Shown: positions 7,524-29,679 of the stretch, in pieces
Position numbering within the stretch: the stretch's first letter is position 1
Layout of the letters: the number at the start of each line of letters is the position of its first letter
The notes under the pieces: generated by a model
What the model was told of the DNA's origin: nothing
Databases searched by the model: none
Seen by the model: only the letters and a program-made list of their open reading frames with translations
Program-made: the position numbers and the translations under genes
Source: a bacterium
Lineage (GTDB): Bacteria > Auribacterota > UBA3054
Assembly: GCA_017554565.1 (NCBI GenBank)
Contig: JAFZID010000148.1
Location: 1 to 34,938, forward strand
Direction: 5' to 3'
Length of the DNA stretch: 34,938 bases

Positions 7524-9146
7524 TCACGGCAGCAATGCGATGCGGAAGCCGCGGAAGTTGTTGTAAGTGTAGGTGGAGGCTCCGCCTCTGCTATATGAGC
7601 AGCAGCTGCTGTCGAACCAGGATCCGCCTCTTATTGCGCGGCCGGAGCCCGTTTCAGGACCCACGGGATCTACCGTGGATTCTGACGAACCGTTCCGGTT
7701 GATACACCACTCCCAGACGTTTCCGTGCATATCGTAGAGGCCCCAGTTGTTCCCGCGGTACGAACCAACGACTGTGTGTTCGAAATATCCGCCTTTCCAG
7801 TCGTCCCTGTTGCCGAGATAGCGGCCAACTTCTTTCAAATTGTCATCCGTGCCGTTGTTATAGGCGGTGGTCGTGCCCGCCCTGCAGGCATACTCCCACT
7901 GGGCTTCCGTCGGCAGGTCGAAGATGTTGCCGGCCTTTTTCCTGAGCAGTCCCACAAAACTGTTTTCGTCAACATCATAGTTGGCGGGGAAGGCGGCGCC
8001 ATTTTCAGTCCCGCGCAGCATGTCGTAGGGAACGCTTTCAACGGGCCTTGTGGGGCCGACTAATTCGGAAGGATTGCCGCCCGCAATGTTCTGGCATTGC
8101 TTCTGCGTCATTTCAAATATGCCGATATAAAAAGCTTTCGTCAGCGTGACTTGCACTTTTTCTTCTCCTCCCATGCCGAAGGTCCCGGGCTCTATTCTTC
8201 TGAGCCAGAGTTCGTCCGTCTTGCACTTTTCGTCGCTGATATCGGGAGCGTTTGCGGAGATGCGCATCTTGCCGCTTGCCGTGTCAAGCACAAGATAATC
8301 GGCAAAACTGGTCACGTCGTCGGATTCCACCCTCAGCTCCACGTCGTCCATCTGATCGACGTATTCGGGATCGGGGATCCAGGTCAGCTTGTGGGTCCCG
8401 TTTCCGGCCACTATTCCGCTGGCGCCGTCGTATTCAAGTTTTCCCATTTCTTCCAGCAATTTTTCCGAACCGTCTTTCAGTTTGCCGTAGAACGCGGCCT
8501 GGAAGATCGGCAGGGTGCTTTCCGTCGAGGGCGTCAGTTCATATTCGAAGACCCTTTTATAAGAGGGCTTAGGAGTAAACGGGCTCAGGACCAGCGCAAT
8601 GCGGAAGCCTTCGAAGAAAGAAGCGTTATCAGGCTTGCGGAAGTCACGGGCGGCGGAGCGGCATCTGCCGGCTCTCCGGGATGCGGCGGCCCAAGGTCCG
8701 CTCTTTATGGTGCGGTGCATGCTCCATCTCGCTCCCAAGGGCTCTGTCGTCGCTTCGCTTCCAAGGTCGGCCTGGTAGAGATCAAGGACCCATTCGTTCA
8801 CATTGCCGTGCATATCGTAGAGACCCCAGTTGTTCGGCATGTAGCAGCCGACTATGGTATGGTCTTTAAACCCGCCTTTCCCGTCTTCGCGGTCATAATG
8901 ATAGCGGCCGACTTCATCCATGACGGAGGATTCGTCTTCGTGGGTCAGATCTTTCCCGCTGTTCAGGGCCGTGGTCGTTCCCGCCCTGCAGGCGAATTCC
9001 CACTGCGCCTCGGTGGGCAGATCGAAAGTCAGGCCGGTCTTGGCGCGAAGTTTGCCGAAGAAGGAGTCTTCGTCCACCTCATAGCTGTCGGGCCAGGACG
9101 CGCCAAGATTTTCTCCGCGGAGCATGTTGTAGGTTACGTATTCCAC
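7524..9146 (-). CDS. Downstream part of interrupted SUMF1-type gene (rest of domain 1 plus domain 2)
   Basis: 540 aa from the first ATG, but that ATG lies inside a SUMF1 domain (YVTYNMLRG), so it is probably not a genuine start; the frame is open back to the in-frame TAA at 9204-9206. It holds most of a first formylglycine-generating-enzyme-like domain and a complete second one. Both contain DLPTEAQWE(F/Y)ACRAGTTTA and NNWGLYDMHGNV. An all-beta linker of roughly 100 residues separates them. The second domain has GGSWFDSSCCSYSRGG where the true enzyme has two catalytic cysteines; the first position is aspartate, so sulfatase-activating chemistry is unlikely. Unless the TAA is read through or is a sequencing error, this piece is a non-translated remnant. 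Confidence 0.75.
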   Translation of the reverse strand: MEYVTYNMLRGENLGASWPDSYEVDEDSFFGKLRAKTGLTFDLPTEAQWEFACRAGTTTALNSGKDLTHEDESSVMDEVGRYHYDREDGKGGFKDHTIVGCYMPNNWGLYDMHGNVNEWVLDLYQADLGSEATTEPLGARWSMHRTIKSGPWAAASRRAGRCRSAARDFRKPDNASFFEGFRIALVLSPFTPKPSYKRVFEYELTPSTESTLPIFQAAFYGKLKDGSEKLLEEMGKLEYDGASGIVAGNGTHKLTWIPDPEYVDQMDDVELRVESDDVTSFADYLVLDTASGKMRISANAPDISDEKCKTDELWLRRIEPGTFGMGGEEKVQVTLTKAFYIGIFEMTQKQCQNIAGGNPSELVGPTRPVESVPYDMLRGTENGAAFPANYDVDENSFVGLLRKKAGNIFDLPTEAQWEYACRAGTTTAYNNGTDDNLKEVGRYLGNRDDWKGGYFEHTVVGSYRGNNWGLYDMHGNVWEWCINRNGSSESTVDPVGPETGSGRAIRGGSWFDSSCCSYSRGGASTYTYNNFRGFRIALLP

Positions 9147-9203
9147 CGGGCGGGTATCGCCTGTATAGATCGAGGGATTCGACCCTGTGACGAGCTCGTA
9201 CTG

Positions 9204-9206
9204 TTA
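9204..9206 (-). other. In-frame TAA splitting the SUMF1-type gene
   Basis: The two reading frames either side are in exactly the same phase. The protein reads FETTQ, stop, QYELVTGSNPS. The paralogous second domain of the same gene has FEMTQKQCQNIAGGNPS, so the stop occupies a position normally held by lysine. AAA to TAA is a single base change. No frameshift or deletion is needed. Confidence 0.85.
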
Positions 9207-10268
9207 CTGCGTCGTTTCGAAGACGCCGATGTAGTAACCGTTCGTCAGAGTCACTTCATGCGCTGTTTCGTTTACATCCCTGCCAACTTCGGATTCAACG
9301 CTTCCCATGGTGAAGGTTCCCGGATCGATCTTGCGCAAAACAAGCTTCGTGGTCTTGTACTCTTCTGTCCAGCCGCCTTCGGGAACGCTGTCCAGGTAGG
9401 TGACAGGGTATGAGGCGGCAGTCGGTCCGCCGGACAGGTCGATGACCGCATATCCTTCGCCAAACGTCGATTCCTCAGCTACGATCTTCACTCTCAAATT
9501 ACTTTTTGTGAAGTAGAACTGCTCGCCGGGCGTCCAGATGATCTTGTGTTCACCGGTTCCGGTCACGGTTCCGGCGGCGCCGTCTCCTAACAGAGCGCCT
9601 TTTTCAGAGAGGTCGAAGACCGTTTCCCCTTGGTCAACGGAACCGTAAAACTGCACGTTGAAAGAGGCGTCGGCGTTTTCAGACTGGAGGCCATAGGTAA
9701 TGACGACGCTTCTGGAGAAGGGCCATATCTGCAAGCCCCTGATGTAGCTTACGCAGTTGGCCTGCGCGCTGAGAGAAGTAAGGGAAACAACGGCGATCAA
9801 CGCAAGCAGGCTCTTTGTGCGCTTTCTTAAGAAAAGCGCTCCCACAAAAGCGATGAGCAGCAAAACTGCCGGCTCCGGAACGAGCGTCACTTTTCTGGAG
9901 AGGACCTGCGTTCCCAGTTCGGTCGAGATCGTTTCTTTCAGAAGATACGTGTCATCCAGGGGAAAATCCTTGTACGTATCGGAGCCATAATCCCAGCGAA
10001 TGCTGCCTTCCAAAGGAATGCACATGTAATCGCCGAAAAGGAGAGCGTTGATTCCGGAATCAGACGTGTCTTCCGTCGTGATCTCAAGAGACTGCGGTTC
10101 GCCCGGCACCAGATACGTGCTGTAGCAGATGTCGTCCGTGGTCCTCAGGACGATGGGCTTATCCGTGATCTCGCTTCCGTCGAAGCGGAAATCAGAAGAC
10201 CACAGTTCGTCGCAGAAAGCGGACGCACAGAAAATGGCCGCAATGCCGAATAGAATGACTTTTTTCAT
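9204..10268 (-). CDS. Upstream part of interrupted SUMF1-type gene: PEP-CTERM segment fused to SUMF1 protein start
   Basis: 354 aa, ending in an in-frame TAA (9204-9206) inside a SUMF1 domain. Residues 1-19 are a signal peptide (MKKVILFGIAAIFCASAFC). Residues 20-129 look like a short exported protein. Residues 130-153 form a complete PEP-CTERM signal: VPEP at 130-133, the hydrophobic stretch AVLLLIAFVGALFL, then RKRTK. Without a stop the frame runs into LLALIAVVSLTSLSAQA (154-170), which looks like a second signal peptide, then a beta-rich region and the start of SUMF1 domain 1 (RKIDPGTFTMGS). The frame continues after the TAA into the 7524-9146 piece, so the two are one 2745-base gene with a nonsense codon. 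The ATG lies 18 bases after the M16-GH36 stop, with AGAG as a weak ribosome site. Confidence 0.8.
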   Translation of the reverse strand: MKKVILFGIAAIFCASAFCDELWSSDFRFDGSEITDKPIVLRTTDDICYSTYLVPGEPQSLEITTEDTSDSGINALLFGDYMCIPLEGSIRWDYGSDTYKDFPLDDTYLLKETISTELGTQVLSRKVTLVPEPAVLLLIAFVGALFLRKRTKSLLALIAVVSLTSLSAQANCVSYIRGLQIWPFSRSVVITYGLQSENADASFNVQFYGSVDQGETVFDLSEKGALLGDGAAGTVTGTGEHKIIWTPGEQFYFTKSNLRVKIVAEESTFGEGYAVIDLSGGPTAASYPVTYLDSVPEGGWTEEYKTTKLVLRKIDPGTFTMGSVESEVGRDVNETAHEVTLTNGYYIGVFETTQ

Positions 10269-10286: not shown

Positions 10287-13200
10287 TTATTTAATATTTA
10301 TTCTCCAGAGGAGGGAGGAACGTTTTTCGGGAAGTGCGGCTTTTACGCCCTCTCTGAGTTCTTCTCCTTTGCATTCCCATACTTTGCCGCTGTCCTCGTC
10401 CTTTAGCTGATAAGTCGCTTCAGGTTTGGCGAAGGGCAGTTTCAGAACGCAGGTGTCATCTTCGCACTCATCCTGGCGGAAAGCGAGGACGGCCGCCTTG
10501 CCTGTTTCCGGATCGTTGTAAGCGAAGGCCGTCCAGCCCTTGAGATCGTCTTCCGCGTGCCAGGGCGTCAGGACATAGTAGTCCTTGAGAAGAAGGTCGT
10601 TCAAGGAACGCCATTCCTTAAGGATGCTGCGCATAAGGTCGAGGTCAAGGTCGGGATTCTGGGTGACCTGGCCGCCTATGCCCCAGGCCGCGGGAAGGTA
10701 CGAGGCGCGGGAAATGTAAAAATCGGAGCCTTTGCCGGTGGGAGGATCAAGTTCGCCTTTGGTCTCTTTGTTGTTGCTTCCGTGGAATGGGATCCAATAA
10801 GGCAGCGTAGAGCTCATGGAAAGACGCAGTCCGGAAGTCGTCCTGTCGGCGTCGGAGCGCATGAAGGGAATGCCGCGGCGCATGGACTCTATGTCGTTGC
10901 GTCCCCCGCCGCTGGCGCAGGAATCGACGTAGGTGCAGCCGTTCCTGGTCCTCTGCCAATCGATGATGGCGTCCCAGAGCGCGTAGTGGCCCTGGATGAG
11001 GAAATTCTCGGTAAGGCCTTTGCGCGGGATGCCCAGTCTCTTGGCCTCCTCTTCGTCGTGGAATTTCCAGTTGGGGGCGTGGGAAAAATTGTTGTCCTCC
11101 CTGTAAATGTCGGCGCCCACTCTTTTCATGGTGCCCAAAACTCTGTTTTTCGTCCACTCGAAGCATTCCTTGTTGCCGAGGTCGTTGGTGGTCTGGCGGT
11201 TCTGCGCGCCGTCGTTTATCGCCCACTCGGGTTTGTAGCCGTAGTTTTGGACAAGGCCTTCCACGTTGGTGACTCGTTCCGGCTCAAACCACATGAGGTT
11301 CTTCATGCCCTTGTCGGTGCAGGCCTTGAAGTAATCCCTCAGCGTTTCATCGGGCCATTTGTATTTGTCAACTTCCCAGCTGCCGACGCTGGAATACCAG
11401 TAAAGGCCGGCGGTCTTGCCGTAGGGGTCGGTGTACCAGCCGGCGTCGAACCAGTGGACGTCGGCCACAAGGTCTTCCTGCGCCAGTTTGTCCAAGGTCC
11501 TCTGCCATGTGGTGTGATCTTCAGCGGAGGAGCCGTCCCACTGCTCGATGTGCTCTTTGCCGGCGTCGGGGTTGAAGCCGACCGCGGTGAAAGGCTTGAT
11601 AGGATCGCCTTCGGCGTTGGCTCTCGGCATGTTGCACTCGATGAACCAGCGGCGCCAATAGTTCCAGGCGGCGGTCTTGTCCCTGCCAACGTAGGGCAGA
11701 ATCACGACGAGACCGCTTCTGATCTTTTCACCGGGAAGCAAAGAGGCTTCGAGGTCGAGGTCGGATTCGAAAATTACATGCTCTCCGCCCTTGACGGCTT
11801 CAAAAGAGGCTTTGAAAGTGCCAGCCCAACCCAGGGCCATGAGATATCCGCCGTCGCCGATGACCAGGTCGTAATACGGGAAGGCGCCGTGCGTCGGGCG
11901 GCCGCTCTCGCTGGTGAAGTATATGCATTCTTTCAGGAGATCCCTTTCGTAAGGAGCGTGGTGGCTGCCCTGATCGCCGCCGATGCCTCTCAAAACGGGC
12001 TGGGAGCCCATGAATGAATTGTTCAGAGCCATTAAGTTCGCCAGGACTTTGGAAGGCTTATCTCCTTCGTTGGCGAAGTAGATCGTGTATTCCGTCTGCC
12101 GGTACTTGGCGTTGTATTTCGCTTTTATTTCGCCCGTGAGCTCCTCGTCGATCCTGACTTTCCTGCCGTAAACTTTTCCGTCTTTCGTGTCCTCAAGTTT
12201 TTCTTCGAGGACCGGGAAGGCGCCGAAGCCTTTGTAGGTCTTGCCGTCATAATCAAAGGAGAAAAATTCGCCCTCCGGCGAAGTGACGAGACCGAAGATA
12301 CTGTCCTCTTCCTCCGGTCCGACGACCACCGTCGTCATCTTTTCGGGGACGATGTATTTTTTAGCCAGTTCTTTAAATTCGGCAAGCGTCATGTTCTCGG
12401 TGATCTTCTGGCGCTTCACGAGATAATCTATGGGGTAGTCGAAGCGCAGCACGGCCTCCAGAAGGAGCCGGCGGTCGCTGACGGTCTCGCCGCGCCTGAC
12501 CAGGGACTTGGCGACGGTCGCTTTCGTATATTCGAGATCCTCTTCGGAAAGCTCCTCGGGATATTTCTTGACGAGGTCCTCTATTATCTGCAGCGCTTCT
12601 TCGGTGTGGACGGCGTCAACGGCGGTGGAGATGACGTAGGACCCGTAATCTTTTTCCGCGTCGAAATAAGAGCTGGCGCCGTAGGTGTAGGCTTTCTCTT
12701 CCCTCAAGACCAGATTGAGCCTCGAGCTGAAGCAGCCGCCCAGCATGAAGTTCATAAGATGAGCCTTGAAGAATTCCTCATCCTGGCAGCTCATGGCCGG
12801 CAGCCCCACTCTTATCTCGCTCTGCGCGGCGTCCTCGCTCTTCTTGAAGATCTTTCTGCCTGGGATGTATTTTTCCAGAGACGGCTTCCCGGCTTTCTGG
12901 ACTTTCGCTTTGGAATAGAATTCGATGATGCCCTTCGAGAGCTCCTTCAGTTCCTCAAGATCGATGTCCCCTACCGCCGCGATGGAAAGAGGCGAATTGG
13001 CGATCGTGTTTTTGTAATAATCGGAAACGTCTTTTTCGCTGAGCTTTTCAATGCTCTCAACCGTTCCGTTCAAAGGCATGGCGACCGGAACGCGGCCGTA
13101 AACGCTCTCATAGAAGAGATTGTCGGCCAAACATTCCGGATCGATGGCGTCCTGGCGCAGCTGATCCAGCTGTCTGGCTTTCAGGCGCGCAAAATCCTCC

Positions 13201-15044
13201 TTCCTGAAGGCCGGTTTGGTCAGAGCCTGCTCTATGAGCGGGAAAAGTTTCGGAACGTTGGCGGAAAGGGTCTGCACTCTCAGGAGAACGCTGTCGGCGG
13301 TCGCCCTGGAAGAGAGCGACACGCCCAGATCTCTCACAGCGCCGTCGAACTGCACGGCGTCGAGATCTTCCGTGCCTTCCAAAAGCATGTAGGAGCAGAG
13401 AGAGGTTATGCCGGAATTCTCAAGCGTTTCACCGGCCTGTCCGCCGTGGAGGATGAAGGTTATCTCCGCCATGGGGAGCGTTTCGTCTTTTTCCACCATA
13501 AGGCGGATGTTGTCGCCTATTTTTTCTTCCTGGACTTCCTGGACCTTTATTTCGGGCAGTTTCCCTTCAGGGGGTATATTTGAACGGTCGAAGCTGGAAG
13601 GCAGGTCTTTGACGGCCTGGTAGCCCTCGCCGGGCTGTCCGAAGGAACTTTCGTCAACCGTGGGCTCCTTGATCTCCGGGACGAGCGTCGAATCTTTCAT
13701 GGCGAGCTCGGCCTGGTCGGCGGGAAGGATCGTCAGCGTGAAGGAGGGCTTGCCCTTCACGTATGTTTCATAGACTCTTTTTATGTCGTCCATGGTCACG
13801 CTTTCCATCTGGTCGGCCATTTCGTTCAGCCTGTTCCAGCTGCCGGCGTATTCGTCGCTGTAGGCCAGCAAGAAGGCCTTGTCGATGCTCTTCTGGAGCT
13901 TGGCGTAGAATTCCCTCAGGCAGCGCGCCTTGTAGCGGTCGAGCTCCTTTTCGTAAGAGTCGAAATTGTCTTCAAAATCCTCAAGGGCCTCTCTGATCGC
14001 GGCGCTGGCGTCTTCAACCTTTACGCCGGGCAGAAGCCTGGCCGTGATGGTGAATTCTCCGTTAAGATCGCAGCCGTCGCTGTAAACGTCCGCGGAAGGA
14101 GCGAGCTTCTTTTCCACGAGATGACGGTAAACTGGCGACTCTTTGCCCGTGCCCAGAAGAGCGGCCAAGGCTTTCAGGGGAATGCTGTCCTCGGAAAACT
14201 CATGGGTTCCCGGGAAAACTACGGAAACGTCGGGAGCCCCCGCCAGCTTGTCGAGGTAATGGTAGTTCAGGTCTTTTTCAAGCTTGACGGGCCTGGGCTT
14301 CGGATCTTCCAAAGCCGTGCCGCCGGGAATGTCGCCGAAATATTTTTCCGCCAGGCGAAGAGCTTCCTCCCTGTCGAAGCGGCCGCACAGCACGAGCGTC
14401 GCGTTCCTGGGGATGTAGTACTTCTCGTGGAAAGCCTGGACATCCACAAGCTTGGCGTTCGTTAGGTCTCCCATGTCGCCTATCACGGTGTGTCCGCTGG
14501 GATGATCCGGACCGTACATCAGCTTGCTCTTTATCTCCCACCCGTAACCGTAAGGAACGTTCACCTCCGTCTGGCGCTTTTCGTTTATGACCACGCCCTG
14601 CTGGACCGCCAGGGCCTGGGGCGTCATAGTGGGAAGCAGATATCCCATGCGGTCGGCTTCCATCCACATGGCGGCCTCCATGCCGGAAATTGGGACGGTC
14701 TCATGATAGAAGGTGTGGTCCACGCTCGTCCAGCCGTTCATTGTGCCGCCCAAGCCCTGGATCATTTTCCAGGCCACTTTGGGCGGAACGTGCTGGGATT
14801 CCGAGAACATCAGGTGCTCGAAAAGATGCGCGAATCCGGTCTTGCCTTTTTCCTCCCTGTTGCAGCCGACATGGTAAAGCACGCCGACGGTTACCACGGG
14901 AGCGTATCCTTCCTGGCAAAGCAAAACGGTCAGACCGTTTCCTAAAGTGACTTTTTCGCAGCTCAATCGCATTTTTTCATCCTCGCACCCGACCGTTAAA
15001 GTGAGGGCCGTCAGGATAGGCAGGCAGTATCTTGAAAGCTTCAT
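10287..15044 (-). CDS. M16 metallopeptidase (double domain) fused to a GH36-like alpha-galactosidase
   Basis: 1585 aa. The N-terminus has a hydrophobic export signal (MKLSRYCLPILTALTLTVGC) with a weak lipobox-like Cys20. Residues about 30-470 are an active M16 domain with zinc motif H73-x-x-E76-H77 (FAHLFEHLMF) and the distal ligand E155 (VINEK). Residues about 510-910 are the second, inactive M16 domain, as is normal for 900-residue pitrilysin-like enzymes, ending with TTVVVGPEE. From about 915 to the end the sequence is a clan GH-D glycosidase: D1200 in HWFDAGWY, FEPERV near 1253, D1317 in YREDNN (nucleophile position), VDSCASGGGRND near 1373 and D1398 in RSDADRTT (acid/base position). The boundary falls exactly at the end of a full M16 protein and no signal peptide remains before the GH part. 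Both halves look intact. Such a fusion is not one I know. Confidence 0.88.
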   Translation of the reverse strand: MKLSRYCLPILTALTLTVGCEDEKMRLSCEKVTLGNGLTVLLCQEGYAPVVTVGVLYHVGCNREEKGKTGFAHLFEHLMFSESQHVPPKVAWKMIQGLGGTMNGWTSVDHTFYHETVPISGMEAAMWMEADRMGYLLPTMTPQALAVQQGVVINEKRQTEVNVPYGYGWEIKSKLMYGPDHPSGHTVIGDMGDLTNAKLVDVQAFHEKYYIPRNATLVLCGRFDREEALRLAEKYFGDIPGGTALEDPKPRPVKLEKDLNYHYLDKLAGAPDVSVVFPGTHEFSEDSIPLKALAALLGTGKESPVYRHLVEKKLAPSADVYSDGCDLNGEFTITARLLPGVKVEDASAAIREALEDFEDNFDSYEKELDRYKARCLREFYAKLQKSIDKAFLLAYSDEYAGSWNRLNEMADQMESVTMDDIKRVYETYVKGKPSFTLTILPADQAELAMKDSTLVPEIKEPTVDESSFGQPGEGYQAVKDLPSSFDRSNIPPEGKLPEIKVQEVQEEKIGDNIRLMVEKDETLPMAEITFILHGGQAGETLENSGITSLCSYMLLEGTEDLDAVQFDGAVRDLGVSLSSRATADSVLLRVQTLSANVPKLFPLIEQALTKPAFRKEDFARLKARQLDQLRQDAIDPECLADNLFYESVYGRVPVAMPLNGTVESIEKLSEKDVSDYYKNTIANSPLSIAAVGDIDLEELKELSKGIIEFYSKAKVQKAGKPSLEKYIPGRKIFKKSEDAAQSEIRVGLPAMSCQDEEFFKAHLMNFMLGGCFSSRLNLVLREEKAYTYGASSYFDAEKDYGSYVISTAVDAVHTEEALQIIEDLVKKYPEELSEEDLEYTKATVAKSLVRRGETVSDRRLLLEAVLRFDYPIDYLVKRQKITENMTLAEFKELAKKYIVPEKMTTVVVGPEEEDSIFGLVTSPEGEFFSFDYDGKTYKGFGAFPVLEEKLEDTKDGKVYGRKVRIDEELTGEIKAKYNAKYRQTEYTIYFANEGDKPSKVLANLMALNNSFMGSQPVLRGIGGDQGSHHAPYERDLLKECIYFTSESGRPTHGAFPYYDLVIGDGGYLMALGWAGTFKASFEAVKGGEHVIFESDLDLEASLLPGEKIRSGLVVILPYVGRDKTAAWNYWRRWFIECNMPRANAEGDPIKPFTAVGFNPDAGKEHIEQWDGSSAEDHTTWQRTLDKLAQEDLVADVHWFDAGWYTDPYGKTAGLYWYSSVGSWEVDKYKWPDETLRDYFKACTDKGMKNLMWFEPERVTNVEGLVQNYGYKPEWAINDGAQNRQTTNDLGNKECFEWTKNRVLGTMKRVGADIYREDNNFSHAPNWKFHDEEEAKRLGIPRKGLTENFLIQGHYALWDAIIDWQRTRNGCTYVDSCASGGGRNDIESMRRGIPFMRSDADRTTSGLRLSMSSTLPYWIPFHGSNNKETKGELDPPTGKGSDFYISRASYLPAAWGIGGQVTQNPDLDLDLMRSILKEWRSLNDLLLKDYYVLTPWHAEDDLKGWTAFAYNDPETGKAAVLAFRQDECEDDTCVLKLPFAKPEATYQLKDEDSGKVWECKGEELREGVKAALPEKRSSLLWRINIK

Positions 15045-15091: not shown

Positions 15092-15121
15092 ATTATAGTC
15101 ATTTCGTTTCCGCTTTCCCAA
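15092..15121 (-). promoter_or_regulatory. Candidate promoter for the M16-GH36 gene
   Basis: Read on the minus strand: TTGGGA (15121-15116), an 18-base spacer, then a perfect TATAAT (15097-15092), about 48 bases upstream of the start codon. It overlaps the 3' end of the GH32-like gene. The -35 matches the sigma70 consensus at four of six positions. Confidence 0.5.
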
Positions 15122-16823
15122 ACTTGCCGGCCCGGCGGCAGATCATCGTGCGAACGCAAGCTATCTCCACGTCGAAGATGGTGGCGTCGGACTTCCTGTC
15201 CCAGTACTGCACAAGTTTGACGCTATAAGCCGACGCGAACTCAGGCAGATTAGTGACGCAGAAATTGCCGGCTAGGTGCGCGGCCTCAAATTTGGCGTCC
15301 GCCGCGTCATCGCTGAAAGCGGCGGTGCGCGCCGCCGGATCAATGGTGAAGATTAACGGGTTGCCGCCCTCGCGTTCCGGCGCCATCACGAGGCTAAACG
15401 TCCGCCCGGGCTGCGCTGTGAACTCTTGAATCGGCGCCGGCGGCGCGATCTCCGGCACCCACTTCGTGCCGAGCGTGCCGTCGGGATTCTGGATCAGTTC
15501 GCGGAACACGAGCCAGCCGCCCCAGCCGTGAATGTGGTTGAGCCAGCCGGCCATGATGCGGCGGTTTTCGCCGAAGGGAGCGACCATCGGCACGGATAGC
15601 CCTTCGTAGGGAGCAAAGCCCGTGTCCGTCCAGTTTACGAAGGTGCCCGGTTCTCCCGTGGGGCTGTAGGCGAACTTCGTAAAGCCCTGGAACAGGTAAT
15701 AGCGGCCGTTCCACTCGAAAAGGCAGGGGCAGTCCCCGCCGATTGGTATCGTGTCGTCGTACAGCGTCCAGTCGCCGATGTGGTCGCTCTTCAGAATCGT
15801 TCCGGGCATGCCGTAGCCCGTCACCAGCCCAAGAAGACCGTCCATGCGGTTGTAGATGGTTGGATTCTGCGTGGCGTGGACGATCCGGCGCGACGGAGTA
15901 AAGCGGATGCCGTCCTCGGACACCGCGTAGGTGGCGCCGATCGGATAGGCGGGGTCTTTGGTGAGGCGGCTCGTGTGCAGACCGTAAGCAAGGTGGAGCT
16001 TGCCCTCATAAAGAAACGGCGTGCCGGTGCCCAGCGAAGTCCACCATTCGTCAAGCGGCACGGCGGCCGGATGTTCTTCCCAGTTGACGAGGTCAGATGA
16101 GGAGAGGTGCGCGAAGTAGTGCCGTCCCACGCCGCCGCCCGATCCGTGATGGCGCCGGTCGAAGAGGTAGAACACATGGAAGCGCCCCTTGAAGCTTCCG
16201 ACGGCCACGTCACCCACCCAGGCGTTGGGGTCGTCGGGCGTCCAATACTGGATCGGGCGCGTTATGCGGCGGGAATCAGGCGTCTCGGGAAGGGCGTCCG
16301 CGAGCGCGGGCGATGAGAAGGAGGCCTTCTTCACTCGCGGCGAGAGGATTCGCTCCTTAGCGTCGGCTGTCCAGGGGATGGAGTCCGGATCGGGCGGCAT
16401 GTCGTCGTCCCGCACGCCGTCCACGATGATCGTCCAGCGCGACAAGGCAAAATTAATGGTCACGTCGTGAATGACGTCCGCGCGCGGAAGCGCGCCGAGG
16501 GGAATTCCTACGCGTCCGCCAATCTCGCAGATCGTCGCTTCGATGACAGGGCACGAACCGTCGGGCATCGGGAAGTTGAGGTAGTTGCCGCTCCGGTCGT
16601 CATACGACTTCAGATCTTTGTTTTGCCCGGCCATGCGAAGCGCGAGCTTCGCGCAGCCGACCTCGTAGAGCGCTTCGTCGGCCTTAACATCGGAGAGATC
16701 GAGGCGGAGTTTCACGGTGAAACAAGGCGCGGCGGCCTGCGCTGCGAGTGTAGTGCAAAGGGCCAGCGCGGCGGCAAGGGGGCGATGTTTCACGGTCGTG
16801 GCCTTTTCATCGGAGTTAACCAT
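15099..16823 (-). CDS. Secreted five-bladed beta-propeller glycosidase, GH32/GH43-like
   Basis: 574 aa with a signal peptide after a basic n-region (...VKHRPLAAALALCTTLAAQAAA). Residues about 190-470 look like a GH-F/J-type propeller: YWTPDDPNAWVGDVAVGSF (D198 equals the WMNDPNG nucleophile position of GH32), FHVFYLFDRRHHGS, SSDLVNWEEHPAA and GGDCPCLFEWNGRYYLF. In GH32 the acid/base lies in ECP; here that position reads DCP (D364), so activity or exact family is uncertain. The C-terminal part is beta-rich, as in GH32. It probably acts on plant or host glycans outside the cytoplasm. GC is somewhat higher than next door (67-70% in sampled lines against about 63% in an M16 line), a weak hint of different origin. 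No Shine-Dalgarno is visible before the ATG. Confidence 0.72.
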   Translation of the reverse strand: MVNSDEKATTVKHRPLAAALALCTTLAAQAAAPCFTVKLRLDLSDVKADEALYEVGCAKLALRMAGQNKDLKSYDDRSGNYLNFPMPDGSCPVIEATICEIGGRVGIPLGALPRADVIHDVTINFALSRWTIIVDGVRDDDMPPDPDSIPWTADAKERILSPRVKKASFSSPALADALPETPDSRRITRPIQYWTPDDPNAWVGDVAVGSFKGRFHVFYLFDRRHHGSGGGVGRHYFAHLSSSDLVNWEEHPAAVPLDEWWTSLGTGTPFLYEGKLHLAYGLHTSRLTKDPAYPIGATYAVSEDGIRFTPSRRIVHATQNPTIYNRMDGLLGLVTGYGMPGTILKSDHIGDWTLYDDTIPIGGDCPCLFEWNGRYYLFQGFTKFAYSPTGEPGTFVNWTDTGFAPYEGLSVPMVAPFGENRRIMAGWLNHIHGWGGWLVFRELIQNPDGTLGTKWVPEIAPPAPIQEFTAQPGRTFSLVMAPEREGGNPLIFTIDPAARTAAFSDDAADAKFEAAHLAGNFCVTNLPEFASAYSVKLVQYWDRKSDATIFDVEIACVRTMICRRAGKFGKAETK

Positions 16824-23195: not shown

Positions 23196-24569
23196 TCACT
23201 CCTCCACCAGGTCAAGCAGGACCCTGAGGTGGAGGGTCTGGCTCTTGGTCATCTTCAATTTCTCCCCGTACTGGGTGACCATGACGCCGTTTTTGGAGTT
23301 GTAAAGGGAGAGCCTGAGACCGTCGTAGGGATAATAGCCGTTGTCGGGAGTCTGCGTTTCGGACTGGAAGTAGCCTTTCTTCCTTACAAGAAGGAAATCC
23401 CCCGACTTCCTTTGAAGAAGCTTCTGGGGCCCTGTCAGGGGATACCAGGCTTCCAGCTGGTTTATCAAAACCACCCCCTCCTTGGCCACGATGCCCTCGT
23501 CGGACCCTTTGACCAGGGAGTAGCCCGGACGTTCCTTTTCCGCCTTGATGGCCACCGGGGCGCCCGCGGGGAACTTGGTTACCAAACTGAGGCAGGACAT
23601 GACGTCGTGGGAAGTGATGTTTTTGGACATGACGTCGACGGACAGCTCCCCGCTGCGGGGGTTCAGACGGTAAACGATCATGCGCCGGACGCCGTTCAGA
23701 AGATCCGGGGCCGCCAGCACTCTTATGGCGCCGTCTTCCTCAACCCGCCATTTCCATTTCTTGGGATCGGCCACCACGGCCTTGTAATTGCGGGTGGGAA
23801 CTATCTCCTCCTCGGGCTGCAGGAAAGACTGCATCGTGCCGCCGAAGTTCTCCCGGCTGTTCGGACCGTAATGCACCAGCATGCCGTGGTGCTCCGGAGC
23901 GATCATGACGCAGGCGTAGGCGTTGCTCGCCCCCACCAGGGGGCCGTATTCTCCGCCGGACGCCCGGCAGAAGACCGTCACGCCCTTTCTGGTCTCCGTG
24001 GGAAAGGCCTGGAAGCTGTCGCTTTTGCATTGCGAGACGTAGTTGGTCCGGCCAAAGATCATGGTCTCCCTAAGTCTCACGCCGCCCTCCAGTTCGGGGT
24101 CCAGAAGGTCGACTACCGCCTCGCTGTCCCCTTCCACGGTTATTGTAAGGTCTTCCGTGCCCTTGAAAGTCTGGTTGACTTCCTCGAAGGAGCCTTTTTT
24201 GATCTCGGCTTCCCAGATGGTCTTTTTGTTGCCGCTTATGCTGACCTTGGCTTTGGCTTCCTTGGGGGAAGACTCGTCCATGCAGACGCACATTTTCAAT
24301 GTGGCTTTGTCCTGGGGCAGGGCGTAAACCAAGATGGCGCTGCCCTTGACGCTCAGGCCTTTCTCAAAGACCGCGCCGCCGTTTTTCAAAGGCTTACCGT
24401 CGAAAGTCTCGTTCCTGGTCACTTTGGGGAAGCCGCCCTTCTGGGCGTAGCACTCCACGCCCACGGGTTCGCTGAGGCTGACGTGGGAACGGTCATAGAC
24501 TCTCTGATCCACGCTGGCGCAACCTAAAATAAGCAAAGCCGCGCCGCTAAAGAAAAGAACGTTTTTCAT
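23196..24569 (-). CDS. NPCBM-domain lipoprotein
   Basis: 457 aa from the ATG at 24569, preferred to one 8 codons upstream because it overlaps the metzincin stop (ATGA) and begins a signal peptide, MKNVLFFSGAALLILGC, with lipobox Cys17. Residues about 30-160 fit an NPCBM carbohydrate-binding module: a target sentence of FEKGLSVKGSAILVYALPQDKATLKMCVCMDE then KAKVSISGNKKTIWEAEIKKG. The remaining 300 residues are beta-rich and resemble no enzyme I can name; a glycan-binding or sugar-epimerase-like sheet fold is possible. It is probably anchored to a membrane and binds glycan. Translational coupling to the protease gene upstream suggests they act together at the cell surface. Confidence 0.72.
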   Translation of the reverse strand: MKNVLFFSGAALLILGCASVDQRVYDRSHVSLSEPVGVECYAQKGGFPKVTRNETFDGKPLKNGGAVFEKGLSVKGSAILVYALPQDKATLKMCVCMDESSPKEAKAKVSISGNKKTIWEAEIKKGSFEEVNQTFKGTEDLTITVEGDSEAVVDLLDPELEGGVRLRETMIFGRTNYVSQCKSDSFQAFPTETRKGVTVFCRASGGEYGPLVGASNAYACVMIAPEHHGMLVHYGPNSRENFGGTMQSFLQPEEEIVPTRNYKAVVADPKKWKWRVEEDGAIRVLAAPDLLNGVRRMIVYRLNPRSGELSVDVMSKNITSHDVMSCLSLVTKFPAGAPVAIKAEKERPGYSLVKGSDEGIVAKEGVVLINQLEAWYPLTGPQKLLQRKSGDFLLVRKKGYFQSETQTPDNGYYPYDGLRLSLYNSKNGVMVTQYGEKLKMTKSQTLHLRVLLDLVEE

Positions 24570-26542
24570 TTTTGGATATACATGCCGCCGCACATCTTGA
24601 AGAAAGCGCCCTTCTCGCCGACGTCCTTAAGCCAGAAACGCTCGCACATCCCGTTGCCGCCGACAAGGAAATTGCTAAGGATGTAAGCTTTGCCGTTCAC
24701 TATGACTCTTGTCAGCATCTGCTTCTGCAGATTGATGACGAAGATCCAGTCCTGCCAGGACTCGTCGATCCTGGCCTTGGTCGTGGTTGTCTTCTCTTCG
24801 CTGCAGATCTCCATCTTGCCTTCTTCGGTAACATGAACGTAGAAAAGCGAATCTCCGCTAATATCCTTGACATCGAAATAAGTGCTGCCGAGGCTGGGTT
24901 TCAGTCTGACCCTGAATTCCAGAGTCTTGGCGCTATTATCCTCGGGCTTCAGGGCCATGGGCGCCATAACGCCGCTGCCGCCGTGATGGGACCACAAGAC
25001 TTTCCCCTCCTCGGGATCTTCCACTATTTCGCCCTGAGTGTCGCTGTCAAGCGGCATAAAGCCAAACTGTTTGTCGACCTTGCCCAGTTCGAAATCGCTG
25101 AAATCATATTTCCTGCTGGAGGCGGAAGGAATGGGGGCCGTCAGAGTGACGGTGCTGTAATTTCCGTAGGAGTCGATGGCGTCGATCTGCACCATGCCCT
25201 TGTCATAGAGTTTCAGGGCTTCAAAAATGTTGATCTTCGCGACCTTTTCGCTATAGGGAGCGGGATAGTAATGCGTCTGTTCAAGAGAGCAGACGAAGAA
25301 CGGGTCCGTTATGGTGTACCATACCAGGCCGTTCTCGGCTTCGATCTTTATAGTCTCCCTGTCCTCTTCCAAGGTAATAGAAGGGCCCTTCTCGCTGACA
25401 AGCCCTTTCACCTCATTGAAGAAAGGCGAAACGTTCAGCCAGGCCGTTTCCGGCTTGTTCCAGCAGTATTCTTCCTCTTCCGTGAAGTAATAGTTCGTGG
25501 GGCAGCGCGCAGTCGGTGTCTCATAGAAGGTAAAGATCCTGTTGATGTGGTCGCCCGCCCTGGCCATGATGCCCGGGCCCTCGATGTGAGGCAGCCCGAA
25601 GCTGTGCCCCAGTTCATGCTGATAAGCGCCCAGAGTCGTGGCCACGTGCCCCCACTGGACGTCTCTCCATATTGAGTCGTTGTTGGGGGAAGTTATGGGC
25701 GTATTGTTGGTGAAAGCCTGCACCACGTCGGAAAGCGAAGAGGGCCAGCCGTAGAGGCCGTTGGCGCCGAACTGGCCGAGAAGCTGGCCGCCCAGGGCCG
25801 TGTTACCCGATAGTTTTCCGTTCCTTATCATCTGGGTGTTGCAGAGCCCCGTGATATGGCGGTTGCCTTTTCCTTCCTTGCCTTTGCCCACCGTGCGCAA
25901 AAATTCTTCGTAGAGCTTGTCTTCGTTGAAGTCGTCGTTCAGGCGGCGCCATTCGTTGATCTCCGCTCTGGAATATTTGCTGGTGATGATCTGGACGTCT
26001 ATTTCGCCGTCCTTATCGAGATAGAAGCTGAAGGTCTTCCTCGGATAGCCGTTCCTGACCAGGCTGTCGGCGCTGTAGGACTGCAGCAGTTCAAGGGACG
26101 TGCGGTACTTCTTCAGCCAAAGGTCAGGGTCCTGTTCCTGCGGGTCGTTCTCCAGGTTCGTCAGATATTTCCTGTCCCCGGTGTTGTCCACCAGATAATA
26201 AGCCTGGTATAAGTAATCCGTCTTCGGCCTTTCGTAGTTAAGAGAGATATTGCAGACTGTTTCACCGCTCTTGATCTCAATGTCGTTCTTGCCGAATTTG
26301 AGTTTCGTCCAGGCTTTGAAGCGTCCCTTGTAAGCCGGGCACTGCAGAGTCAAGCCGGTCGTCTTGTTCACGACCGTCACTTCCGTGATGTCGCTGGGTC
26401 CGTGGCCGCGGAACAAAGGCACTGGATAAGTTATCCTTTCGCCGTCTTTGAAGTTGTCCACGACGATCGGGGAAAGATCTTTCTTTTTCCCGCAGGCGGA
26501 AAAGAGTAAGCAGATTGCCAGAAGAAGAAGTACTTTTTTCAT
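24566..26542 (-). CDS. Lipoprotein metalloprotease with HExxHxxGxxH (metzincin) motif
   Basis: 658 aa from the ATG at 26542, preferred to one 21 codons upstream because GGAG precedes it and it starts a lipoprotein signal (MKKVLLLLAICLLFSAC, Cys17). The zinc site is HELGHSFGLPH (H309, E310, H313, H319), followed by GPGIMARAGDHINRIF, which supplies a Met-turn. This arrangement resembles the putative zincin family of PF12044 (fungal YIL108W type). The N-terminal 200 residues include an Ig-like region. The C-terminal 170 (from about FSDFELGKVDKQFGF) look like a concanavalin-type sandwich. It probably acts on proteins at the cell surface. It overlaps the NPCBM gene and has its own extended -10 promoter. 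Confidence 0.8.
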   Translation of the reverse strand: MKKVLLLLAICLLFSACGKKKDLSPIVVDNFKDGERITYPVPLFRGHGPSDITEVTVVNKTTGLTLQCPAYKGRFKAWTKLKFGKNDIEIKSGETVCNISLNYERPKTDYLYQAYYLVDNTGDRKYLTNLENDPQEQDPDLWLKKYRTSLELLQSYSADSLVRNGYPRKTFSFYLDKDGEIDVQIITSKYSRAEINEWRRLNDDFNEDKLYEEFLRTVGKGKEGKGNRHITGLCNTQMIRNGKLSGNTALGGQLLGQFGANGLYGWPSSLSDVVQAFTNNTPITSPNNDSIWRDVQWGHVATTLGAYQHELGHSFGLPHIEGPGIMARAGDHINRIFTFYETPTARCPTNYYFTEEEEYCWNKPETAWLNVSPFFNEVKGLVSEKGPSITLEEDRETIKIEAENGLVWYTITDPFFVCSLEQTHYYPAPYSEKVAKINIFEALKLYDKGMVQIDAIDSYGNYSTVTLTAPIPSASSRKYDFSDFELGKVDKQFGFMPLDSDTQGEIVEDPEEGKVLWSHHGGSGVMAPMALKPEDNSAKTLEFRVRLKPSLGSTYFDVKDISGDSLFYVHVTEEGKMEICSEEKTTTTKARIDESWQDWIFVINLQKQMLTRVIVNGKAYILSNFLVGGNGMCERFWLKDVGEKGAFFKMCGGMYIQK

Positions 26543-26573
26543 ATGTTTCTCCAAAACAATTAAACAACAAACT

Positions 26574-26582
26574 ATTTTAGCA
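26574..26582 (-). promoter_or_regulatory. Extended -10 promoter of the metzincin gene
   Basis: The minus strand reads TGCTAAAAT, an extended -10 with one mismatch, about 32 bases before the ATG at 26542, and no clear -35. It lies in the 52-base gap after the AT-rich operon, where no terminator was seen. Confidence 0.5.
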
Positions 26583-26594
26583 AAAACACTGTCT

Positions 26595-27455
26595 TCAAAT
26601 CTCATTAACGATAGCTAACAAACGATATCTTTCACTTAAAACAAAAGTTATTATATCTCTTCTATTTTCCATGTCGCTCTGATGAGTCAGCCACTCATTT
26701 AACTTAGAACAATACAACGATATAAAATTGACATCATCTATACTAAGCAAAGACGCAACTTGAGTCACAAAGCAGCGCATAATAAAACCCCTGGCATTAT
26801 AATTCGAATCAAGCCATTTAATAATACCTTCTTTTATTTCTTCGTCTGACAAACCTGAATAAAACAAAACGGCGAGATTATATACTTCACCTTTATTTCC
26901 ATTAAATTGGCTCAAAAAATCCTTCATTGTTGAACGGCAAGATTTTCTTTCCAAACAGGCATACAAAAGATTAACGAAATCAAATTCAGCATTTTTATCA
27001 TACAAAACAAGTTTTTTTAGAGTATTGTCATGAGATTTAGTATCATGCAATGACCAGTAATAAGCCATCAACAACCTGTAAAGGTCTGCGCAATAAGGTG
27101 AAAAATCCAATTTTGAATTTTTGTCAATTAATTGATTTAAATAACAGGGCAAAACTGGATCATCATTTTTAGCATTAAACAAATATGAAGCATAAGCATA
27201 TCCTATAACAAGATCTGCCCTCTCACTACAGGCAAGAGTTTCATCAGTTTGTTCTTCTAAAATATCTTTCAATGCTATAGCGGCTTCTCGCCATTCTTTC
27301 CTTTTGGCCAAAACTTCAGACTTTTTCACCGCATCAATCAAATATGAACCAGATCCTAAATGTTCAGAAATATAAACTATTCCGTCACGTTTTTCACACG
27401 CAAACGAAGTGATAGTTATTATTGAGATAAAAATTAATAAAGCTGATATCTTCAC
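26595..27455 (-). CDS. Exported alpha-helical protein, paralogue of the operon's first gene
   Basis: 286 aa, starting with GTG at 27455 that overlaps the previous stop (GTGA). Signal peptide MKISALLIFISIITITSFAC. The next 45 residues (RDGIVYISEHLGSGSYL..., LAKRKEWREAAIALKD) resemble the start of the 31101-33032 protein (RNGVWFLHPHITGSVYL..., LAKQKKWEEAANKAGE). The remainder is predicted helical with TPR-like spacing, but no consensus TPR was counted. It has no catalytic motif I can identify. It is the last gene of a five-gene AT-rich operon; about 28% GC in a sampled line. Its function is unknown; helical repeats suggest protein binding in the periplasm or at the surface. Confidence 0.75.
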   Translation of the reverse strand: MKISALLIFISIITITSFACEKRDGIVYISEHLGSGSYLIDAVKKSEVLAKRKEWREAAIALKDILEEQTDETLACSERADLVIGYAYASYLFNAKNDDPVLPCYLNQLIDKNSKLDFSPYCADLYRLLMAYYWSLHDTKSHDNTLKKLVLYDKNAEFDFVNLLYACLERKSCRSTMKDFLSQFNGNKGEVYNLAVLFYSGLSDEEIKEGIIKWLDSNYNARGFIMRCFVTQVASLLSIDDVNFISLYCSKLNEWLTHQSDMENRRDIITFVLSERYRLLAIVNEI

Positions 27456-28693
27456 ATTATTTTCTTATTTATATAAACCAGTGCTGCAAGGACAATCAAA
27501 GCGACAAAACTAGGCTCAGGTAATTGCGAAATAAGGTAAGGAAAAGATTCGCCTTCATCAATGTCCCAAACATTTTCAAAATCCCAGTTTTTAAAAGTTG
27601 AAGAAACCTTCATTTCTTCTTCCGTTTTACCAATCGCAAAATTATCATCAGCTTTAGTTAAACTTGCATTAAAAAAGCAATCGGAAATGAATAAATAATC
27701 ATTTGTGCTGAACACTCCTATAAAAGCTTTCCTAAAACCATTTCCACCATCAACCGATCCTGACGAATAACATCTGGAAATGTTGATTTTGGAAAGTGCG
27801 TTACGATTATTAACCGCTGAAATGAACCCACATGCTTGTGGATTATTCCCTCCTTTGACAATTTTAACAAGGCTATAAGAATTTTGAATATTGATTTCAG
27901 CGTTGTTTGAAACCAAATATCCAATAAAGCCACCAGCATAACCTGAATCGCCATCATCATAAACAAGATCTGATTTTGCCCAACACTTGTCTATATAAAG
28001 ACCTCCGCTACAATCGACATGGGATATAAGTCCACCGGAATAAAGTAAAGAATCAATAAAAGCTTCAGATCCGCAATTGATTATTTTCAAAAAAGAATTT
28101 GTTTCTATCAATGCTGTTCCTATCAATCCGCCATTATAAGAACCAGGAAAAGCATCCAAATTAATAATTCCGGTCGTAAAACAATTCTCAACGCTGGAAT
28201 TTTTCCCGGAGTTAGATACTATCGTGCCCACCAAAACACCACTGCCATAATATGCAGCGCCTTTTAAATGCATATTTTTTACGACAATGTTTTTCAGCTG
28301 AAATATACCATAGGAAAAAACACCATGTGGATAAAGTTTTATTTCATAACCATAATAGGGATTAATAATAGAGTAACCCTGTCCGTCATAATTCAAAACA
28401 AAAGAGCCCTTTTGATTATAAGTTATCACCGGGCGCCATCCATAATTGATATCTTTCTCTTGGTCATAACCCCTTTGCGTGTCGGTGGCGTCTATATCTC
28501 CTATCTGTTTGCAATAAATAATACTATTCGCCTCAAAATTATCACTATTTTCGCTGAGCCAGAAAAAGTTTTCGTATCTTTCAAAAAGATAAGGATCTGT
28601 TTCCGTACCATCGCCTTTGGGTTTTATCGGTTCATTAACAGCCCAAAGCGAAAAAGCATAAATGCATATCAATACAAGTAATTTGTTATTCAT
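27452..28693 (-). CDS. GLUG-like beta-helix surface protein with PEP-CTERM signal
   Basis: 413 aa. Signal peptide MNNKLLVLICIYAFSLWA, then GDGTETDPYLF, the entry motif common before GLUG repeats in surface proteins. Several glycine-rich turns follow (GQGYSIINPY, GSGVLVGTI, NGGLIGTALI, SGGLISHV, AGGFIGYLV), each ending a beta strand, as in a right-handed parallel beta-helix. The C-terminus is PEPSFVALIVLAALVYINKKIM in form: PEP box, hydrophobic stretch, basic tail. Exosortase would cleave there, releasing it to the extracellular matrix or surface. The role could be adhesion or glycan contact. AAGGAT precedes the ATG; its stop overlaps the GTG of the next gene, and the previous gene ends 11 bases upstream. 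It belongs to the AT-rich operon. Confidence 0.82.
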   Translation of the reverse strand: MNNKLLVLICIYAFSLWAVNEPIKPKGDGTETDPYLFERYENFFWLSENSDNFEANSIIYCKQIGDIDATDTQRGYDQEKDINYGWRPVITYNQKGSFVLNYDGQGYSIINPYYGYEIKLYPHGVFSYGIFQLKNIVVKNMHLKGAAYYGSGVLVGTIVSNSGKNSSVENCFTTGIINLDAFPGSYNGGLIGTALIETNSFLKIINCGSEAFIDSLLYSGGLISHVDCSGGLYIDKCWAKSDLVYDDGDSGYAGGFIGYLVSNNAEINIQNSYSLVKIVKGGNNPQACGFISAVNNRNALSKINISRCYSSGSVDGGNGFRKAFIGVFSTNDYLFISDCFFNASLTKADDNFAIGKTEEEMKVSSTFKNWDFENVWDIDEGESFPYLISQLPEPSFVALIVLAALVYINKKIM

Positions 28694-28704
28694 AGAATTT
28701 ATCC

Positions 28705-29667
28705 TTACTGCTTCATAGAAAGATTGATGGCTTCAAATATTTCGGCTTCAGAAATATCGTTCCTGTCAGGAATAAAATAATACCAATACCTCTTATTATC
28801 TTTTGTTTGAGAATAATATTCCTCAGCCATTCTATACCATTTAGGCATACTATCGTTCAACCACTTTCCTAGTTTAAGATCTCCGTTTGATATCATTTTT
28901 TCAATATAACGCCACCCCTTTGGCTCTGGGAAAGCATATTCTTCGTTGTGTTCTTCCCACCAAGAAATAAACTCACCTCTTATGGGTGAGTTGCTTACTT
29001 TTTTTAAAGCGGAAACTAATAAGGTTAAATTAGTATCTCCATCTTTAATTGCCGAGTAAACATAAGGAAAAGAATAGAACCCAAGCTTTGACATATCATT
29101 TATAAGTCTTTCTTTAACAATTGCCCTTGTTTCTTCTCTATTACATTCATTTTGCCAACAATCATACCAAGTATTCCAAATTACTGGCATATGAAGCCTA
29201 TCATAATGCCACCAAAAATAACATATTTCATCATTGTTAAAAACAATCTCTCCTTCTTTGTACTTAAACCAGCAAAAAGCTATATTGCCGTAAGTCTCAA
29301 AGCCTAATTGAAGACCACCTTTAGAATTTATCTGTTTACAAACTCCCTCAAAAACAGAATTGGTTATATATCCGACATTATCGCAATATCTCAAACAAAA
29401 GCAATTGTTATTAAAGTTGGTTTCAAAGAAAGAAAAGAGTAAAGGCAGCGCAACTTTTGGAGGTATATTTGAAAGCTTTCTTCTTGCGACAATTCCAGCC
29501 AAAAAATCATTTTTTACCGAATCAGGATACTTTTCCCATGAAAAATCAAACTTATCAAAAAGTATAATTGGAGTTTTTTCAACAGTTTGTATTAAGTTTA
29601 AATAATCTAAAAAGTCACCGCTGAAAGCAGAAAATGTTATAAAAAAAACAAATAGTATTTTATTCAT
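28705..29667 (-). CDS. Exported protein of unknown function
   Basis: 320 aa with a short signal peptide (MNKILFVFFITFSAFSG). The rest is rich in Trp, Tyr, Phe and Cys in the middle (NNNCFCLRYCDN, ICYFWWHYDRLHMP, WNTWYDCWQNEC), then a charged helical C-terminal third. No family or catalytic motif was recognised. GAGGAAG lies 5 bases ahead of the ATG. It is the third gene of the AT-rich operon, 12 bases after the previous stop and 11 before the next start. The cysteines suggest disulfides in an exported protein. Confidence 0.7.
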   Translation of the reverse strand: MNKILFVFFITFSAFSGDFLDYLNLIQTVEKTPIILFDKFDFSWEKYPDSVKNDFLAGIVARRKLSNIPPKVALPLLFSFFETNFNNNCFCLRYCDNVGYITNSVFEGVCKQINSKGGLQLGFETYGNIAFCWFKYKEGEIVFNNDEICYFWWHYDRLHMPVIWNTWYDCWQNECNREETRAIVKERLINDMSKLGFYSFPYVYSAIKDGDTNLTLLVSALKKVSNSPIRGEFISWWEEHNEEYAFPEPKGWRYIEKMISNGDLKLGKWLNDSMPKWYRMAEEYYSQTKDNKRYWYYFIPDRNDISEAEIFEAINLSMKQ

Positions 29668-29679
29668 ATTGCTTCCTCG

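Follow-up and report, generated by a model that had tools for sequence, protein, structure and literature searches.

A conserved fusion of an M16 metallopeptidase with a GH36-like glycosidase, predicted as a lipoprotein, in bacteria from ruminant digestive tracts

The M16 metallopeptidases enclose peptides or small proteins in a chamber and cut them (PMC12731061). A review of the family lists the HxxEH zinc motif, the distal Glu, the two homologous halves and the R/Y pair as its elements, and gives FusC and PqqL as single-chain M16B cases (PMC12731061). The distal Glu of pitrilysin is 77 residues away from the zinc motif (H92 to E169) (PMC12731061), and the substrate of FusC is imported ferredoxin (PMC6793856). 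In the GH36 glycosidases, the nucleophile and the acid/base are located in the KWD and SDxxDxxxR motifs, respectively (PMC8509150). The first-pass annotation of the DNA described here knew of no described case of an M16 peptidase joined to an alpha-galactosidase, and no M16 fusion to an alpha-galactosidase or melibiase was found in the literature searched. The window, i.e., the whole stretch of 34,938 nucleotides that was analysed, encodes a protein of this kind, which is a true, conserved domain combination of two known families, previously unreported in the searched literature.

A single frame with two enzyme modules

The frame starts from ATG at 15044, ends with the stop at 10287, and encodes 1585 amino acids with zero internal stops. 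The M16 frame thus continues into the glycosidase without a stop, as the first-pass annotation had read it, and the joint is crossed in eight of eight genomes of the genus. Along the chain, a signal of the lipoprotein type comes first, an M16 metallopeptidase complete with both halves second and a GH36-like glycosidase last, and the computed mass of the mature protein is 176.4 kDa. The features of the N-terminal side are as follows.

10287..15044, minus strand: whole fusion gene, 1585 codons and the stop; a single frame conserved in eight genomes
14985..15044, minus strand: lipoprotein-type signal MKLSRYCLPILTALTLTVGC, residues 1-20, with candidate acylated Cys20, from a lipobox pattern match
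13710..14972, minus strand: M16 first (zinc-binding) half, residues 25-445 (PF00675/PF05193), of which 413 residues align to 4nnz (E 1e-37)
14814..14828, minus strand: zinc motif HLFEH, residues 73-77 (H73, E76, H77), aligned with M16 relatives
14580..14582, minus strand: distal zinc ligand Glu155, aligned with M16 relatives
13545..13709, minus strand: hinge joining the M16 halves, residues 446-500 (approximate bounds), the gap between two Pfam stretches
12312..13544, minus strand: M16 second half, residues 501-911, without HxxEH (second PF05193 stretch)
12681..12704, minus strand: R/Y motif REEKAYTY in the second half, with Arg781 and Tyr788, from alignment

The lipobox pattern ends at Cys20 and is invariant in the six relatives whose sequence includes the N terminus. 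The presence of the lipobox and its invariance in the genus suggest a lipid-anchored envelope protein. Thr at the -3 position of a lipobox, as found here, is less usual. LolA-like genes located about 2.5 kb from the fusion gene fit a diderm envelope that has lipoprotein transport. The proposal of a single exported polypeptide carrying both enzymes is thus supported by the single frame with one predicted lipoprotein signal at the N terminus of the peptidase.

Pfam assigned Peptidase_M16, best at residues 40-155, and Peptidase_M16_C in two stretches, best at 201-373. Glu155 is located 78 residues past H77, and the R/Y pair is present in the second half. The active and inactive subunits of 3amj were both matched by the two halves, and the match of the second half to 3amj_B, the inactive subunit of a zinc peptidase, had an E value of 1.5e-29. 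The nearest solved structures are M16B-type chains: the first half is closest to 4nnz, and the second to the inactive subunit of 3amj. From the Pfam matches, H73/E76/H77, Glu155 and Arg781/Tyr788, the complete two-domain M16 peptidase with HxxEH and a distal Glu proposed in the first-pass annotation is confirmed. As regards a Fus-type import system, no TonB-dependent receptor family was found among the 25 frames of the window searched with Pfam.

The glycosidase half consists of the following parts.

11550..12257, minus strand: N-terminal domain, residues about 930-1165 (approximate bound), with two allelic types in the genus
10545..11549, minus strand: catalytic barrel region, residues about 1166-1500 (approximate bound), from PF02065 and the profile alignment with GH36 structures
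11094..11096, minus strand: Asp1317, candidate nucleophile (YREDNN), aligned with D482 of 2xn0 (KWDMN)
10851..10853, minus strand: Asp1398, candidate acid/base (MRSDAD), aligned with D552 of 2xn0 (SD motif, ASDN)
10290..10544, minus strand: C-terminal domain, residues about 1501-1585, from the module alignment

Pfam Melibiase (PF02065) matched residues 1182-1392 with 46.4 bits against a cut-off of 27; PF16874 matched the stand-alone relatives and was not reported by Pfam for the fusion itself. A profile made from the module and six relatives aligned with 2xn0 over positions 58-647 of 665 (E 1.5e-43), so that the N domain, barrel and C domain were all aligned with solved enzymes over about 590 positions. 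The N end of the module is complete, as the conserved blocks begin at FSFDYDGK (residue 930), likewise in the stand-alone relatives of 667-819 amino acids. D1317 and D1398 are conserved in all seven aligned modules, and they are invariant in the genus and the stand-alone relatives; conservation of the module is highest in the barrel core around this Asp pair. D1384 (GRND) had been taken as the acid/base, and was replaced by D1398 after the 2xn0 alignment and comparison with the SDxxDxxxR motif.

The alpha-galactosidase motifs are changed in the fusion, with DAGWY for LFVL/MDDGWFG, RED for KWD, and SDADRTTSG for SDxxDxxxR. The stand-alone relatives have equal or nearly equal changes (RQD, DAGWY), and therefore, the changes are a trait that the fusion shares with a GH36-like group rather than a sign of its decay. 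As far as found here, this group with altered sugar-binding motifs has no solved or assayed member. The catalytic residues, which had been called apparently intact, are thus kept as the Asp pair, but the motifs around them are altered. Similarly, the module is a complete one of the GH-D/GH36 type, but the specificity motifs of alpha-galactosidases are not preserved. Because of the altered KWD, DDGW and SDxxDxxxR motifs, galactose specificity is an unproven guess and alpha-galactose is only a candidate substrate.

The RED for KWD, the DAGW for DDGW and the unmatched SDxxDxxxR would also suit a glycosidase half that works as a weak or inactive sugar-binding module, steering the peptidase to glycosylated substrates. 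We consider this unlikely, since neither carboxylate varies within the genus or among the stand-alone relatives, and the surrounding barrel core is where the module is best conserved.

The joint and its conservation in the genus

The last residues of the M16 core are KMTTVVVGP, up to residue 911. The two modules are about 18 residues apart, and a low-complexity linker is absent.

12258..12311, minus strand: joint, residues 912-929, from the M16 core end (VVVGP) to the first glycosidase block (FSFDYDGK); crossed in all eight genomes

The joint had been placed just at the normal end of M16. This is correct for the M16 core; in the closest stand-alone M16 relatives, however, the chain continues past the core with a tail of roughly 25-30 residues, which is absent from the fusion. 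The closest of them, G499, is 39% identical over the whole length and ends with a short tail (...LKELGLGEPILLNKDGDEVIQ) that the fusion does not have. The glycosidase lacks its own signal peptide, as was noted in the first-pass annotation, but this is not peculiar to the fusion; no obvious signal sequence is seen at the start of two stand-alone relatives (L013 and L056) either, and two others do carry a signal.

The fusion was found in all eight genomes of the genus, and one contig crosses the joint in each of the seven relatives of the source genome. The whole gene is present in five (the source genome, G001, G003, G006 and G007), and in the other three (G002, G004 and G005) the contig ends within the gene yet crosses the joint. 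The search for the same architecture in related genomes, which the first-pass annotation had proposed, thus gave a positive answer; separate genes in related strains, which would have spoken against the fusion, were found only in other families and phyla and in none of the genus. The genomes are separate metagenome-assembled genomes; those with named records are RGIG bins, which came from the omasum and rumen of yak, the rumen of sheep and of goat, and the rumen and jejunum of buffalo. G002 has two different copies of the glycosidase end (L035 and L041), on contigs C36 and C14, which represent either a second gene copy or mixed strains.

Since every genome is metagenome-assembled, an assembly artefact or a local deletion fusing two neighbouring genes was considered. 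This was rejected as highly improbable, because the same joint is shared by eight separate assemblies with 83-92% protein identity and synonymous differences around it.

In residues 880-940, the differences are mostly at third codon positions (e.g., 3, 3 and 23 at the three positions between L034 and L038). This bias extends across the joint, and therefore, the joint itself is read as protein. The median dN/dS values (Nei-Gojobori) were 0.058, 0.139 and 0.113 for the M16 first half, hinge and second half, and 0.117, 0.101 and 0.144 for the three glycosidase domains. With median dN/dS of 0.06-0.14, purifying selection acts on every module across the eight species.

All eight sequences read share an in-frame ATG at codon 903, and thus the translation might restart inside, or the fused chain might be cut, to give two separate enzymes in the cell. 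This is very improbable, as the ATG has no clear ribosome-binding site, lies within the last M16 strand and would give a product without a signal peptide; moreover, the codons of the joint change in the manner of coding sequence, and nothing was recognised as a known cleavage motif.

The N-terminal domain of the glycosidase occurs in the genus as two types, which differ by about a third. The borders of the types are sharp, one at the joint and the other near residue 1100 (11750-12311, residues about 912-1100). The dS values were 1.2-1.7 inside this region and about 0.6 in the surrounding sequence, and the grouping into types departs from that of the remaining gene; for example, L033 and L034 are 98-100% alike over residues 1301-1550 and 52-64% alike over 901-1100. 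The sharp borders, the raised dS and the independence from the rest of the gene point to an exchange by intragenic recombination. The variation may mark varying substrate contact or exposure to the outside.

Gene neighbourhood and distribution outside the genus

The gene order around the fusion is common to the relatives whose contigs reach that far. The adjoining genes are as follows.

15099..16823, minus strand: GH32-N-like protein of 574 amino acids, 54 bp upstream of the fusion (Pfam), in the same order in relatives
7524..10268, minus strand: FGE-sulfatase (SUMF1-like) domain protein, 18 bp downstream of the fusion (Pfam)

The match of the GH32-N-like protein covers part of the family and its NDPNG region reads WVGDVAVG, and its activity is therefore putative. 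The downstream gene has an in-frame TAA at 9204-9206 (minus strand) in the source genome only, with Lys in the seven relatives, which reflects either an error in the sequence or a nonsense mutation of recent origin. In L038 (10783-16033), this gene is followed by a second copy with 45% identity. Within the region scanned, the strongest resemblance to a promoter is TTGGGA-18-TATAAT, 48 bp before the start of the fusion, a candidate from the consensus match only. A same-strand gene run at 24566-34935 encodes secreted-looking proteins, most of them without a Pfam match, and includes a putative metallopeptidase (PF12044) at 24566-26605.

The distribution was surveyed in some 500 genomes outside the genus, with one genome per species, from the matches listed. 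The joined frame was absent from the seven other genomes of the order and from the rest of the 44 genomes of the phylum examined. When 132 genomes of another phylum were searched with the glycosidase, and 384 genomes across the domain with either half, no fusion was among the matches listed at the E-value limits used. Both modules occur outside the genus as separate genes, with 28-39% identity. The closest M16 proteins are from other phyla and have no adjoining glycosidase. No ancestral adjacency was observed, in that no glycosidase was near the M16 gene in G499, G363, G504 or G455, and no M16 gene was beside the glycosidase in L056 or L057. The glycosidase module was not found on the viral contigs searched, and on plasmids it matched only ordinary alpha-galactosidases with 22-25% identity.

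Possible function and comparison with known enzymes

Rumen microbes must overcome glycosylation, which shields the proteins of plants and hosts against proteases. The fusion is a real gene fusion kept by selection, and the explanation that we prefer, with modest confidence, is that its 176-kDa lipoprotein product tethers two hydrolases at the envelope, where glycopeptides would be stripped and cut. The protein would consist of a single-chain M16B-type zinc peptidase whose core is followed directly by a GH36-like retaining glycosidase, and the lipoprotein signal of the peptidase would export and anchor both modules. If both halves are active and the chain stays whole, the tethering would bring peptide cleavage and the release of terminal sugars to one place at the envelope, so that glycosylated peptides of plant or host proteins could lose their sugar and be cut. 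The attached exo-glycosidase could trim terminal sugars from glycopeptides too bulky for the M16 chamber.

This explanation is supported by the single frame, both sets of catalytic residues, the fused state in eight of eight genomes, the purifying selection, the third-position bias and the invariant lipobox, as well as by the stand-alone relatives of each half, the LolA-like genes and the conserved order with the GH32-like gene upstream. Against it are the altered substrate-binding motifs of GH36 and the Thr at the lipobox, and no neighbour or relative of the glycosidase points to glycoproteins; furthermore, conservation within one genus alone does not prove coupled activities. AlphaFold models of residues 480-1585 and 22-1180, made with 8-10 relatives, were set aside, with mean pLDDT of 32-33.

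The simpler alternative is co-export only, in which two independent enzymes with unrelated substrates share one signal and anchor, and the fusion is kept to carry the glycosidase to the envelope. The stand-alone relatives that begin without an obvious signal sequence, next to the two that have one, fit this alternative; so do the different evolutionary rates of the modules and the separate exchange of the glycosidase N domain, and the upstream GH32-like gene would suit a sugar substrate, e.g., a fructosylated oligosaccharide. However, bacteria often gain enzyme export by a signal peptide alone, and a 90-kDa peptidase is a costly carrier. We hold co-export as a tentative reading; it is nearly as likely as the coupled-hydrolase reading.

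A mucin-like substrate, which had been suggested in the first-pass annotation, is not established, as the adjoining gene is GH32-like and the ruminant hosts eat plant material; mucin is one among several possible substrates. Plant wall extensins carry galactose on Ser (PMC7933510), and extensins and arabinogalactan proteins in the rumen are as plausible as mucin. In the bolder form of the preferred explanation, a bifunctional glycopeptide-degrading lipoprotein, a GH36-like enzyme of new sugar specificity would strip the glycans and the M16 chamber would cut the same peptide; we regard this form as rather doubtful. If true, no earlier case would be known in which a single chain couples these two enzyme classes. 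If both halves share a substrate, the protein would combine a protease and a deglycosidase for glycoproteins in one natural chain and would lend itself readily to enzyme work, and the sugar specificity of the GH36-like group is a directly testable question whichever reading holds.

The peptidase half resembles FusC, PqqL, 4nnz and 3amj in its two hinged M16 halves, with the zinc motif in the first and the R/Y pair in the second, and in its exported nature. FusC and PqqL are soluble, reside in the periplasm and carry no glycosidase (PMC6793856, PMC12731061), whereas the fusion has the lipobox and 670 extra residues, and it is without the C-terminal tail of its nearest stand-alone M16 relatives. 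The glycosidase half shares the three-part order and the aligned Asp pair with the GH36 alpha-galactosidases of Lactobacillus acidophilus (2xn0) and Geobacillus (AgaA/AgaB, 4fnp-4fnu), but its N domain is shorter and its motifs are altered, and those enzymes have no peptidase fused. Its nearest relatives are the stand-alone L013, L053, L056 and L057 (YRQD, DAGWY), which are 28-33% identical with the same altered motifs. These are separate genes for 667-819 amino acids, a few with their own signal or an NPCBM domain, and the modules of the genus are distinguished from them by RED-N-N and by 11 residues inserted between the two catalytic Asp. AgaSK (2yfn) is a precedent for a GH36 alpha-galactosidase fused to a second enzyme, although its partner, according to the PDB title, is a sucrose kinase and not a peptidase.
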